From: Thermotoga caldifontis AZM44c09
GTDB taxonomy: Bacteria > Thermotogota > Thermotogae > Thermotogales > DSM-5069
DNA: 64,000 nucleotides
Reading direction: 5' to 3'
Assembly (NCBI RefSeq): GCF_000828655.1
Contig: NZ_AP014509.1
Location: 806,001-870,000 of the forward strand
Below are positions 56,268-60,056 of this stretch, in pieces. Both the position numbers and the translations under genes were made by a program. Position 1 is the first letter of the stretch; each line of letters begins with the position of its first letter. The notes under the pieces were generated by a model, which searched no databases, was not told the origin of the DNA, and saw only the letters and a program-made list of their open reading frames with translations.

Positions 56268-56894
56268 TCAAGCCCTGGCGATGCAGTAGGCGACGATTTT
56301 CTGTGCGCCCGCCTCAAGTAACAGTCTCGCACATTCGTTCATGGTGGCACCCGTGGTGTACACATCGTCTATCAGGGCTATCACGCCTTCTGGCTTTCCC
56401 TTCAGTCTGAAAGCACCACGAACGCTCTCTTTCCTCTGCTGTCTCGTTAAGCCTCTCTTCGTCGATGAGGCTGTCGATTCGATCAGGGAAGCGCACTCTA
56501 AGTGGATAGATCTGCCGACAATCTTCGCAATCGTTCCCATGGTGTCGTACCCTCTCTCTTCGAGAGCCCTGAAACTGGAGGGAACCCAGGTCAGACGGTC
56601 GCAGGGGATTTTGTACCTCTCCATCGTAGCTATCAACATCTTCGCGAGGATTCTGCGCAGTCTCCAGTGGCCTTCGTTCTTGTAGGCTAAGATGGCCTTC
56701 CTCAGTTTCGAATCGTACCTACCGTAGAAATGAACCTCGCACCATTTCGTTTTTTCAACCAGTGGTATCGGCCCCTGCAAAAGTTCGTGTTCGCACTCGT
56801 CACAGATGACGGAGAACGGTGCTATCGCTCTGCCACACAGAACACAACTGTTTGGAAAGATCGTTCCGAGTAACAGCTCGAGACTCTTCCTCAT
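56268..56894 (-). CDS. comF: ComF family phosphoribosyltransferase-like protein
   Basis: A 208-residue ComFC-type protein: an N-terminal zinc finger (CVLCGRAIAPFSVICDEC) and a PRTase fold ending in the PRPP loop VIALIDDVYTTGATMNECARLL. Family members support DNA uptake. ATG 56894 overlaps the preceding stop (ATGA); the longer open frame upstream lies over that gene. Followed by the chemoreceptor after 12 bases. Confidence 0.9.
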   Translation of the reverse strand: MRKSLELLLGTIFPNSCVLCGRAIAPFSVICDECEHELLQGPIPLVEKTKWCEVHFYGRYDSKLRKAILAYKNEGHWRLRRILAKMLIATMERYKIPCDRLTWVPSSFRALEERGYDTMGTIAKIVGRSIHLECASLIESTASSTKRGLTRQQRKESVRGAFRLKGKPEGVIALIDDVYTTGATMNECARLLLEAGAQKIVAYCIARA

Positions 56895-57505
56895 ATCCAA
56901 TTCCTTTTGAGTTGTTCGGGATCGACCGCGAACAGATCGCACAGGACTCTGATCACGCTCTCGTCGTACTTCTGACAGGTCAGAAAGGCTTTGACACACA
57001 GTAACCTACGTTTCTGAAGTTCGACGTCACCGCATCTGTCTATGGATTCTATCACTGCGTCGTAATCTTCCGGATCGCACAGCGTCACAACGTTCCTGTA
57101 GTTCTTCGCGGCCGCCCTCAACAGTGCAACACCACCGACGTCTATACTCTTCAGTATTCTTTCTTCATCGAGGCTGTCGTCGAGCTGGAAGGGCCTCAGA
57201 TTGACCGCAACGAGGTCGAAAGGCTCGATGTTCATTTCTTTCAAAAGTCGAAGATAGTCTTCTTCGAACAAATTCATCAGGACCGCGGCGAATATCTTCG
57301 GATGGATCGTTTTCACGTTTCCCTGAAGCATTTCTGAAAAGCCTGTTATCTCACTGATTTCTTTGGCGTTCACTCCGCACGAGCGGAGGTACGCAGCCGT
57401 GCCGGAAGTCGCGAAGATCTCAACTTTCCGCTCACTCAAAGCCTTCGCGAATTCGGCGACCCTTCTCTTGTCCCAGACACTGATCAACGCCCTCTTGATG
57501 TTCAC
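56891..57505 (-). CDS. Stand-alone IMP-cyclohydrolase-like (PurH N-terminal) domain
   Basis: A 204-residue protein matching only the MGS-like cyclohydrolase half of bifunctional PurH. It keeps SVWDK (9-13), TSGTA (33-37), TGFSEM, VKTIHP (64-69) and IDVGGVALLRAAAKN (121-135), but the phosphate-binding GRVKTLHP reads GNVKTIHP, GGIL reads AAVL and NLYPF reads NLRPF. No AICAR transformylase follows. It may be a true cyclohydrolase split off from its partner or a repurposed domain. GTG start. Confidence 0.8.
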   Translation of the reverse strand: MNIKRALISVWDKRRVAEFAKALSERKVEIFATSGTAAYLRSCGVNAKEISEITGFSEMLQGNVKTIHPKIFAAVLMNLFEEDYLRLLKEMNIEPFDLVAVNLRPFQLDDSLDEERILKSIDVGGVALLRAAAKNYRNVVTLCDPEDYDAVIESIDRCGDVELQKRRLLCVKAFLTCQKYDESVIRVLCDLFAVDPEQLKRNWI

Positions 57506-57592: not shown

Positions 57593-58804
57593 TCAGTCTT
57601 TCTTTTCCGGGATCAGGAGGTTGGCGATGATCCCAACCATCGCCGCGAGACTGAGACCCTTGAATTCGACGTGTCCAACCTTCAGTGTGGCTCCACCGAT
57701 ACCGACGGTGAGAATCAGGGAGGCTACGAGGAGATTCTTTGGCTTCGAGAAGTCCACCTGTGCGTTGATCAAGGTCCTTATACCCACCGAGGCGATCATT
57801 CCGAACAGGATCAAACTGATGCCGCCTATGACAGGGGTTGGAATCGTGCGGAGAACTGCTCCAAATTTGGATAGAAAAGCTACCAGCATCGCCAAGAAGG
57901 CCGCACCCCTCAACACTCTCGGATCATAAACCCCCGTGAGCGCGAGTACACCGGTGTTTTCACTGTAAGTCGTGTTTGCAGGACCACCGAGCAAGCCTGC
58001 CAGCGAGGTGGCGAGTCCGTCACCGATCAAAGTCCTGTGAAGCCCAGGTTTTTCGAAAAAGTTCCTGCCAACAACGGCTCCATTCGTTGTGATATCACCG
58101 ATGTGTTCCATCACTGTTGCGATCGATACGGGAGCTATCGTTGCTATGGCCGACCAGCTGAACTTTGGAAGCATGAACTTTGGCACACTCAACCAGCTGC
58201 TCTGCTGGATGGGTGAAAGATCGACCAGGCCCAGTGGCAGGGATACAGCGTAACCAGCGAGCACACCGAACAGCACAGGTATCATGCTCCAGAAGCCTTT
58301 CAGCAGGACGGAGGTGAGTATGACCGTGACGACGACCACCATCGCCACAAACCAGTTCTGGCTCGCCATCTGGATCGCCACGGGACTGAGGGTTAAGCCT
58401 ATGACGACGATCATGGGACCGGTCACGACGGGTGGAAACAGCCTGTTAACTTTCTCGATGCCCACCAGCCACACCAGCAATGCGAAGAGCAAGTAGACTA
58501 AACCGGCAGCGAATATTCCACCGGTGGCGTAAGCCAGATCATTCATTTGTTCCTTCACCATGATCACAGGTGCGATGAAGGCGAAGCTTGAACCGAGGAA
58601 CACTGGAACGATACCACCTGTAATGGTATGAAACAGCAGCGTTCCAGCACCCGCCGTGAAGAGTGCGACGAGCGGATCAAGACCGGTCAACAATGGGACG
58701 AGTACCGTTGCGCCGAACATGGCTACGAAATGCTGGAGGGAGAGTAAGAAAAACTTGACGCCACGCACTTGCTGGTGGGCCACAGTGAGGGAAGTGTCAA
58801 CCAT
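57593..58804 (-). CDS. uraA: Uracil/xanthine permease family (uracil permease)
   Basis: A 403-residue NCS2 permease with about 14 helices. Family signatures are QHFVAMFGATVLVPLLTGLDP, the GGPANTTYSENTGVLALTGVYDP segment and the GVIGGISLILFGMIASVGIR-like stretch (PVIGGISLILFGMIASVGIR). It imports uracil with protons. ATG 58804 follows AAGGAGGT; the longer open frame is leader. A PyrR-type hairpin in the leader supports pyrimidine control and hence uracil as substrate. Confidence 0.92.
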   Translation of the reverse strand: MVDTSLTVAHQQVRGVKFFLLSLQHFVAMFGATVLVPLLTGLDPLVALFTAGAGTLLFHTITGGIVPVFLGSSFAFIAPVIMVKEQMNDLAYATGGIFAAGLVYLLFALLVWLVGIEKVNRLFPPVVTGPMIVVIGLTLSPVAIQMASQNWFVAMVVVVTVILTSVLLKGFWSMIPVLFGVLAGYAVSLPLGLVDLSPIQQSSWLSVPKFMLPKFSWSAIATIAPVSIATVMEHIGDITTNGAVVGRNFFEKPGLHRTLIGDGLATSLAGLLGGPANTTYSENTGVLALTGVYDPRVLRGAAFLAMLVAFLSKFGAVLRTIPTPVIGGISLILFGMIASVGIRTLINAQVDFSKPKNLLVASLILTVGIGGATLKVGHVEFKGLSLAAMVGIIANLLIPEKKD

Positions 58805-58818
58805 GATCTGACCTCCTT

Positions 58819-58838
58819 TTTGCCCTCGCTGGGGCAAA
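58819..58838 (-). promoter_or_regulatory. PyrR-binding-site-like hairpin in the uraA leader
   Basis: On the - strand TTTGCCC and GGGCAAA pair around the loop, and 58832-58824 reads CCAGCGAGG, which fits the CCNGNGAGG core of known PyrR mRNA sites. The stem base touches the Shine-Dalgarno AAGGAGGT (58818-58811) with no gap. No terminator fits between promoter and start, so control would be at translation. Confidence 0.55.
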
Positions 58839-58857
58839 TTAAAGGACCTTCGTGGAG

Positions 58858-58887
58858 AGTTTATCACCTTTACACAGCTCATGTCAA
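58858..58887 (-). promoter_or_regulatory. Promoter of uraA
   Basis: On the - strand a perfect TTGACA (58887-58882), an 18-base spacer and TAAACT (58863-58858). The start would be near 58851, giving a leader of about 47 bases that consists mainly of the PyrR-like hairpin and the ribosome-binding site. Confidence 0.6.
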
Positions 58888-58934
58888 GTGATCTTACTCG
58901 CACGATCCTGAGGGAAGCTGTTGAAGCACCATCA

Positions 58935-58956
58935 GATTTCTAATGGATTTCTAATG
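58935..58956. repeat. Perfect 11-base tandem repeat in the divergent intergenic region
   Basis: GATTTCTAATG occurs twice with no gap (58935-58945 and 58946-58956), about one helical turn apart. It lies 48 bases upstream of the secreted-repeat gene and behind the uraA promoter. It may be an operator or part of a promoter; I see no convincing -35/-10 pair for the + strand gene. Confidence 0.55.
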
Positions 58957-59003
58957 TGTTCACTGTAGGATGTTCGACGAAAAACTTCAAGGGGGGAACA
59001 GGG

Positions 59004-60056
59004 ATGATGAAAAAGGTTTATTCAGTGGTGGTTTTGAGCTTCGCGGTATTGTTCTACGCACAGATCACGATCATCGACGACGGCTGGGTCAGATTGAGTG
59101 TACTCGACAACAAGTTCGCTCAGTATCCATACCCAACAGACTTCGTCATCGAAATCCTGGCGCTCGATCGCAGTATGCCCGTGGAGGTTTCCTATCTGAT
59201 GATGGATGGTAGTGGAACACCCGGGCAGCCTTCCACCAACTTCGTCATGAAAGGTTCGAACTTCAATCCTCCCTGGGATGGCAGCTGCTTCTTCAAAACC
59301 GAAGTTGGTGGCTGGGCTCAAGCTGAATTTGCCGCGAATCCAAAGTATTTACCTTTACCGCACTATCGGACCTGCCTGCTCTTACTCGCCAGATATGAGA
59401 ACATCTACGCTGTGTTTCTGAGGGAAAACGACGGACAGGTTGGATACACGCTTCTGAAAGGTGGTTCGTTCAGCAGCTTTGAGATTCCTAAGGTTGCGAG
59501 GATCGAGCTTCAGGTCAACGAGTTCGTGGTCACTTCGCTGGGCCAGCCGGTTGAGGTGGGTATGTGGGTTGAAGGCAGATACACCCACGACGAAGTCGGT
59601 GGCTGGGCCGCTCCAAGTTACGCTGCGAAGACGAAGAGGTACAGAGTCCCGCACTACGAAATGTTCATGATGATGCTGGGTCGCTACGACAAACTCGCAC
59701 TGATCATCGGAAAAGAGAACGATGGACGGCTCGGTGTGATCGTGTTCCCAAAATCTACGAGCTGGTCAAACCCGATCGAGGTGCCTGGATTCTGCAGGAC
59801 CGTGGCCCGGGGAACTCGACTCACCGTTGCGGCCCTGTCAGACAGCCCCGTGGAAATCACCCACTTCGCGTTCGACAACACGTGCTGGCAGTGGGAAGTT
59901 GGGGGATGGGCATTGCCCGAATACGCACCGAAGCAGCAAACTTTCACGCTGAAACACTACACACCGGGTTTGATCGTGGTCAACAGGTACCAGACCATGG
60001 ACCTGTTTGGCTACAACGAGAACGACGGTCAAACGGGAGTCATACAGATCAAATGA
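59004..60056 (+). CDS. Secreted protein with three EVGGW...ENDG repeats, function unknown
   Basis: A 350-residue protein with a signal peptide (KKVYSVVVLSFAVLFYAQ) and three ~100-residue repeats. Each carries PVEV/PVEI, then EVGGWA (100, 197, 298), xYA or EFA, a hydrophobic HY (120, 217, 318), RY (130, 227, 328) and ENDGxxG (141, 238, 339). A stretch of beta-type sequence lies between. The ATG at 59004 or 59007 follows AAGGGGGGAA; an open extension upstream is unlikely. It stands alone between convergent and divergent neighbours. I know no family for it; a surface binding role is a guess. Confidence 0.85.
   Translation: MMKKVYSVVVLSFAVLFYAQITIIDDGWVRLSVLDNKFAQYPYPTDFVIEILALDRSMPVEVSYLMMDGSGTPGQPSTNFVMKGSNFNPPWDGSCFFKTEVGGWAQAEFAANPKYLPLPHYRTCLLLLARYENIYAVFLRENDGQVGYTLLKGGSFSSFEIPKVARIELQVNEFVVTSLGQPVEVGMWVEGRYTHDEVGGWAAPSYAAKTKRYRVPHYEMFMMMLGRYDKLALIIGKENDGRLGVIVFPKSTSWSNPIEVPGFCRTVARGTRLTVAALSDSPVEITHFAFDNTCWQWEVGGWALPEYAPKQQTFTLKHYTPGLIVVNRYQTMDLFGYNENDGQTGVIQIK

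Follow-up and report, generated by a model that had tools for sequence, protein, structure and literature searches.

The window analysed here is a 64,000-nucleotide stretch of Thermotoga caldifontis AZM44c09 (contig NZ_AP014509.1, positions 806,001 to 870,000), and the locus of interest lies on its minus strand, where a gene for an NCS2-family permease is preceded by a short leader with a two-stem hairpin (Table 1). The permease scores 357.9 bits against TIGR00801 (NCS2 superfamily; cut-off 291.8), and its best model is the uracil permease NF007995, at 392.8 bits, under that model's own cut-off of 477; the name uraA is therefore likely rather than proven, with uracil as the putative substrate. 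A longer in-frame ORF, from a GTG at 58903, would make the hairpin coding, and was rejected because the promoter elements fall inside it, and because the ATG, placed 7 bases past the Shine-Dalgarno (SD), matches the relatives. The next gene past uraA (56891–57505, minus strand) codes for a 204-aa product limited to the N-terminal portion of PurH, which is IMP cyclohydrolase-like, and a comF-like gene follows it. A divergent ORF (58956–60056, plus strand, 366 aa) shows, by eye, an apparent signal peptide and repeating segments with VGGWA and ENDG.

The leader, read on the minus strand, is CCTTTAATTTGCCCCAGCGAGGGCAAAAAGGAGGTCAGATCATG. As described in the sequence-only reading, the loop CAGCGA sits on a 7-bp stem (TTTGCCC/GGGCAAA), with CCAGCGAGG as the loop region; this upper part of the fold occupies 58819–58838. 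It had also been described as flush against the SD: the stem does adjoin it, but an arm at 58841–58845 had been missed, and the SD lies within a second, lower helix, in which this CCUUU pairs with the AAAGG of the SD. The complete fold reads, 5′ to 3′, CCUUU-AAU-UUGCCC-CAGCGA-GGGCAA-AAAGG, followed by AGG and, 7 bases on, by the ATG. The hexaloop fits the PyrR consensus CNGNGA, its closing pair is C-G, and an A-rich 5′ bulge sets the two stems apart. I take a CNGNGA loop with C-G closure, two stems and an A-rich 5′ bulge to be the defining features of a PyrR site, in agreement with the Rfam consensus, and refer to the whole element as the box.

Table 1. Features of the uraA leader (window coordinates), and boxes ahead of other operons in relatives (locus labels, L; genome labels, G)
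Feature	Position	Strand	Basis or loci
−35 element TTGACA, uraA promoter (predicted)	58882..58887	−	sequence and relatives' promoters
−10 element TAAACT, upstream TGA, spacer 18 (predicted)	58858..58863	−	sequence and relatives' promoters
5′ arm CCUUU of lower helix (anti-Shine-Dalgarno)	58841..58845	−	invariant in 22 distinct uraA leaders; changes on both sides in pyrC-operon sites
5′ bulge AAU	58838..58840	−	its AA invariant among 22 distinct uraA boxes
5′ arm UUGCCC of upper stem	58832..58837	−	G-C to C-G double changes at two pairs
Terminal hexaloop CAGCGA (PyrR consensus CNGNGA)	58826..58831	−	aligned to RF00515
3′ arm GGGCAA of upper stem	58820..58825	−	G-C to C-G double changes at two pairs
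Shine-Dalgarno AAAGGAGG	58812..58819	−	lower-helix 3′ arm is AAAGG (58815–58819)
uraA (likely name), NCS2-family permease, 403 aa, ATG 58802–58804	57593..58804	−	TIGR00801; SD spacing and relatives
purE-operon boxes			L249 (G080), L250 (G077), L251 (G071), L252 (G072), L254 (G078), L255 (G079)
pyrC-operon boxes			L247, L256, L113, L125, L126, L257, L124, L248, L114 (genomes G066–G073, G076)

The box begins 12 bases downstream of the −10 element. Because of this distance and of the 7 bases between SD and ATG, no terminator or antiterminator fits, and none was found between box and ATG; a PyrR-dependent attenuator at uraA, for which the sequence-only reading had likewise seen no room, was rejected on these grounds.

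Three CNGNGA-loop hairpins with a stem of at least 6 pairs occur in the window on both strands, one of which, the uraA site, abuts GGAGG, compared to a mean of 0.03 such abutting hairpins in 30 mononucleotide shuffles of the window. The fold of 58800–58850 has a z-score of −2.04 against shuffles, which is modest for a single sequence. As free RNA at 37 °C, the leader is predicted to fold with the SD hidden (−16.3 kcal/mol) and CCUUU paired with GGAGG, not AAAGG; the SD may therefore be part-hidden at this temperature even without PyrR.

A search with Rfam at the gathering threshold gave no match anywhere in the window. The Rfam PyrR model RF00515, which represents Bacillota attenuation leaders, shares the CNGNGA loop, the upper stem, the 5′ bulge and a consensus CCUU/AAGG lower stem with the uraA box, but scores it at 30.7 bits against a gathering score of 54 (E 0.012 for 261 bases). 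This model includes a downstream terminator hairpin, which the uraA box lacks; the sub-threshold score therefore argues against an attenuation leader, not against a binding loop. A model built from 26 sites in uraA, purE and pyrC leaders, all from another family of the order (R3), matches the 2.01 Mb T. caldifontis genome at the uraA box only, with 43.8 bits and an E-value of ∼2e-7 (rough calibration). In the same genome, model R1 stays at or below 12.6 bits outside uraA, and R2, like R3, finds no site besides uraA. A chance hairpin is ruled out by the match of this out-of-family model together with the conservation described below.

Conservation and covariation of the uraA box

Of 103 Thermotogota genomes searched with the permease protein, 69 had a match at 1e-50, and loci were taken for the best 30 of these 69, T. 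caldifontis among them. The box is present in 25 of these 30 uraA leaders, as 39-mers of constant length (22 distinct sequences), and in all 25 the lower helix has the SD as its 3′ arm. Four further uraA boxes turned up later: those of G038 and G055, in which the 5′ bulge is one base longer, were omitted from the alignments A2 and A3, while those of G056 and G046 are in A2 only. A promoter pattern (TTGACN-16 to 20-TANNNT) lies 10–28 bases upstream of the box at 22 of the 25 loci, T. caldifontis included, and was missed at three. Because of this short distance, the box is probably at the extreme 5′ end of the uraA mRNA.

CCUUUAA and AGGAGG do not vary across the 22 distinct boxes, nor do the CNGNGA letters of the loop; the loop consensus, which the sequence-only reading had expected close relatives to keep, is thus retained. 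All stem pair cells of these sequences (242/242) are standard. Covariation, which had been proposed as a check, is found in the upper stem, where columns 14–27 and 15–26 exchange G-C for C-G in 8 sequences; shifted registers pair only 47.1 to 71.9% of cells, with zero double changes.

The lower helix is near-constant among the uraA leaders, with a single pair changing from U-A to U-G in two sequences, so the evidence for its covariation comes from paralogous boxes ahead of other operons. At the pyrC operons described below, the helix is GGUU/AACC in place of CUUU/AAAG. Across 36 distinct sequences from uraA, purE and pyrC leaders, 98.3% of lower-helix cells are paired, with double changes from C-G to G-C and from U-A to G-C in 7 sequences each. 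The boxes of purE in G079 and of pyrC in G070 were omitted from the alignments as 39-mers identical to those of G078 and G068, and a ninth pyrC site (G071, L257), found later, is absent from them. The CCUUU:GGAGG register of the free-RNA fold pairs only 84.4% of lower-helix cells, and I therefore take CCUUU:AAAGG, which is also the register of the Rfam PyrR consensus, as the conserved one; the SD is predicted to be hidden in either register.

pyrR and its co-occurrence with the box

The sequence-only reading had suggested a search of the genome for pyrR, and such a gene is present ∼91 kb away from the uraA box, encoding a 177-aa protein above the cut-offs of both NF003548 (223.4 bits, cut-off 218) and NF003549 (221.9 bits, cut-off 138). 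An unrelated ORF upstream ends within the gene (G000:C1:772933-773451, L002). Genome searches with R1, R2 and R3 found no PyrR box at this pyrR, and the gene therefore seems not to be autoregulated through a PyrR box RNA.

The protein closely resembles PyrRs of solved structure, for example 1a3c at 2e-54. Positions 18, 19, 22 and 41 are presumably important for RNA binding, and threonine 18 is, as I take it, an RNA-binding residue of B. subtilis PyrR. In an alignment of 31 PyrRs, in which the T. caldifontis protein is counted twice, R19, T41 and R42 are present in all and H22 in 29, while position 18 is a threonine in none (leucine in T. caldifontis).

Among the 30 genomes with uraA loci, pyrR scores over the family cut-off in all 25 that bear the box, and in none of the five that do not (G002, G089, G091, G094 and G095; Fisher p 7e-6, kinship ignored). 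The pattern extends to the whole phylum sample: model R2 finds the box in 32 of 103 Thermotogota genomes (44 sites), pyrR is above cut-off in 42, and the two coincide in 31 of the 32 box genomes compared to 11 of the 71 boxless ones (Fisher p 6e-16, kinship ignored). The only genome with a box and no pyrR over cut-off, G073, is 60% complete. The 11 genomes with pyrR and no detected box are G003, G004, G012–G017, G020, G022 and G054.

The uraA leader of G002 (L019), a genome with no pyrR match, has no box, yet carries CTTTTAACAAAATTCAAAAGGGG ahead of the start, which could still mask the SD and is perhaps a decayed box. In four boxless uraA leaders of pyrR-less genomes (L026, L034, L037 and L038), a terminator-like hairpin (for example AAGGCTCTTTTGAAGAGCCTTTATTTTT) stands immediately 5′ of the uraA SD; it may mark where the preceding gene ends, or be a different attenuator.

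Boxes ahead of the purE and pyrC operons

The sequence-only reading had also proposed to look for the same hairpin before other pyr genes. In T. caldifontis the box precedes uraA only, and the same is true of its family (f1), where each of 11 genomes has exactly one site, at uraA. The expectation is borne out in relatives of a second family (f2), which carry additional sites, including at a pyrC operon.

The box lies ahead of pyrC in nine genomes (Table 1). In G067, the one genome in which these genes were named by NCBIfam, pyrC is followed by pyrK, pyrD, pyrF and pyrE, with pyrC, pyrF and pyrE above a cut-off and pyrK and pyrD below. Here the box occupies the opening codons of a leader ORF (VNLVxR...), as AUG or GUG and then GUUAAUUUGGUC, so that the 5′ arm of the lower stem touches the start codon. 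The leader ORF is 68 to 97 codons long in the eight leaders analysed; a terminator was called in six of these, and the ORF crosses it in all six. The simplest reading of these leaders is that PyrR would stop translation of the leader ORF, the ribosome would no longer melt the terminator, and the operon would be turned off.

In six genomes (G071, G072 and G077–G080), a box lies ahead of a purine operon, purE-purC-purQ-purL, named by NCBIfam in G080 only, with PurE, PurQ and PurL above cut-off and PurC below. In all six, the SD in the lower stem serves a short ORF (13 to 67 codons) whose start lies 7 to 9 bases downstream. Five of the six have a called terminator; the ORF passes through it in three, stops inside it in one, and ends a few bases short of it in another. 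Four of these purE boxes score above the Rfam PyrR gathering threshold, and therefore provide independent support for the RNA as a PyrR site. The literature search found nothing linking PyrR to a purine operon or to purE.

The terminator caller is a simple, mismatch-free one, and the two pyrC and one purE leaders in which it called none lie outside the following comparison with 2000 dinucleotide shuffles. The test is stronger for pyrC: in five of six leaders, which are interrelated, the frame exceeds almost every shuffle in openness (6, 7, 16, 56 and 68 as open), unlike the frame of G076 (441 as open). For the purE leaders, also interrelated, 182 to 870 of 2000 shuffles were as open, which makes the test a weak one there.

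A wider proposal follows these layouts: that PyrR of the Thermotogales acts only by keeping ribosomes off, at the SD of uraA, at the leader-ORF SD of purE, and at the leader-ORF start codon of pyrC, the two leader ORFs running before or through a terminator; that it also throttles purine synthesis by ribosome-dependent attenuation; and that in the family of T. caldifontis its cis-regulon has shrunk to the uracil permease. I regard this combined proposal as tentative, quite possible but somewhat short of probable.

Control of uraA, alternatives and known systems

From the box, its conservation and covariation, the presence of pyrR, its co-occurrence with the box, and the missing space for an attenuator, I infer PyrR binding, an effect of UMP, and repression of translation. 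Very probably, the uraA leader joins a PyrR-binding RNA loop and a ribosome-binding site in one element, at which PyrR-UMP would occlude the SD. Under this model, with ample UMP, PyrR-UMP would bind the CNGNGA loop, the upper stem and the AA bulge; the bound protein would clamp the hairpin, with the SD held in the CCUUU:AAAGG lower helix, and the 30S subunit would be unable to start on uraA. On release of PyrR, the SD would open and the uracil permease would be made. The role given to UMP agrees with one report, in which it strengthens PyrR binding to mRNA (PMC12369341). A direct block of uraA translation, as the sequence-only reading had proposed, is supported as the best mechanism: the SD lies inside the box, and only 12 bases separate the box from the −10 element.

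The leader could also act without PyrR, as a hairpin that sequesters the SD, for example in the manner of an RNA thermometer, or by damping uraA translation at all times. The predicted masking of the SD in the free RNA at 37 °C (−16.3 kcal/mol) fits such an element, as does the leader of G002, where CTTTTAACAAAATTCAAAAGGGG, by eye, offers a possible weak SD-hiding pair despite the lack of pyrR match and box. However, a thermometer needs neither an invariant CNGNGA loop nor an AA bulge, the box co-occurs with pyrR, and the same loop precedes pyrC operons, with four purE boxes topping the Rfam PyrR gathering score; I therefore consider a PyrR-independent element very unlikely.

If PyrR does bind the box, it might act through transcription or mRNA stability (attenuation, Rho or 5′-end decay) and not translation. 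According to a review, B. subtilis PyrR works by transcription attenuation, and relatives do carry terminators in their purE and pyrC leaders; at uraA, on the other hand, the 7 and 12 bases on either side leave no terminator or antiterminator space, and the SD is inside the box in every box-bearing uraA leader, which makes such a mode highly improbable. The same slight chance is given to the box being a decayed relic, inactive in T. caldifontis, with pyrR kept for uracil phosphoribosyltransferase activity. The lack of any other site in the genome, the altered position 18 of PyrR and the presence of an upp gene in any case would suit a relic, whereas intact pairing of all stem cells, a loop and bulge invariant across distinct species, and the loss of the box from the pyrR-less genomes among the 30 argue against decay.

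SD occlusion by PyrR at uraA resembles a precedent: Fields and Switzer, in 2007, reportedly described how PyrR represses translation of the pyr operon of Mycobacterium smegmatis. The box there reportedly also abuts or overlaps the first ribosome-binding site, with no attenuator and with SD occlusion. The uraA case differs in its target, a likely uracil permease gene and not pyrR or the pyr operon, in its phylum, in a lower helix whose 3′ arm is demonstrably the SD, and in being the only site of its genome. A scan of GTDB genome contigs for PyrR boxes with a 3′ arm leading into AAGGAGG gave at least 119 sites, mostly from Actinomycetota among the matches listed. Among the 119 matches listed, the first ORF past the SD matches PyrR in 103, the permease in one and neither in 15; the sole permease case listed (L167) comes from a MAG that bears the name Thermosipho sp., and its box core is identical to that of L033. 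The layout is therefore already well populated, and common before actinobacterial pyrR; the addition here is a permease gene in Thermotogota.

A second scheme, which Van de Casteele and colleagues are said to have proposed in 1997 for Thermus strain ZO5, has PyrR control a leader whose leader-peptide translation prevents the terminator. The relatives' leaders at purE and pyrC resemble this scheme, unlike uraA, which has neither leader peptide nor terminator; the purE leader differs from it in serving a purine operon. A PyrR RNA at a uracil transporter gene has also been described: in a Streptococcus pneumoniae study, a pyrR RNA precedes SP_1286, a putative uracil transporter repressed ∼2-fold with uracil (PMC10942264). 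As presented there, however, that RNA includes a putative intrinsic terminator, whereas the uraA box has none and overlaps the SD. A survey of 211 PyrR motif sites in 24 lineages includes Thermotogales, and the available portion of its text is silent on sites there (PMC3766115). No description of PyrR sites in Thermotogota was found in the literature searched, which covered the main texts of non-subscription journals.

These findings would extend translational control by PyrR to the Thermotogota, with a transporter as the target in place of pyrR. In the relatives, one RNA module occurs in three layouts that differ by the ribosome signal under the lower stem, one of which precedes purine synthesis. 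Because the CCUU/AAGG of the Rfam PyrR consensus makes the box a near-default anti-SD/SD pair, a switch between attenuation and translational block may be easy to evolve. If the reading of the purE leaders is true, PyrR would be a pyrimidine sensor that balances purines against pyrimidines through the purine operon.
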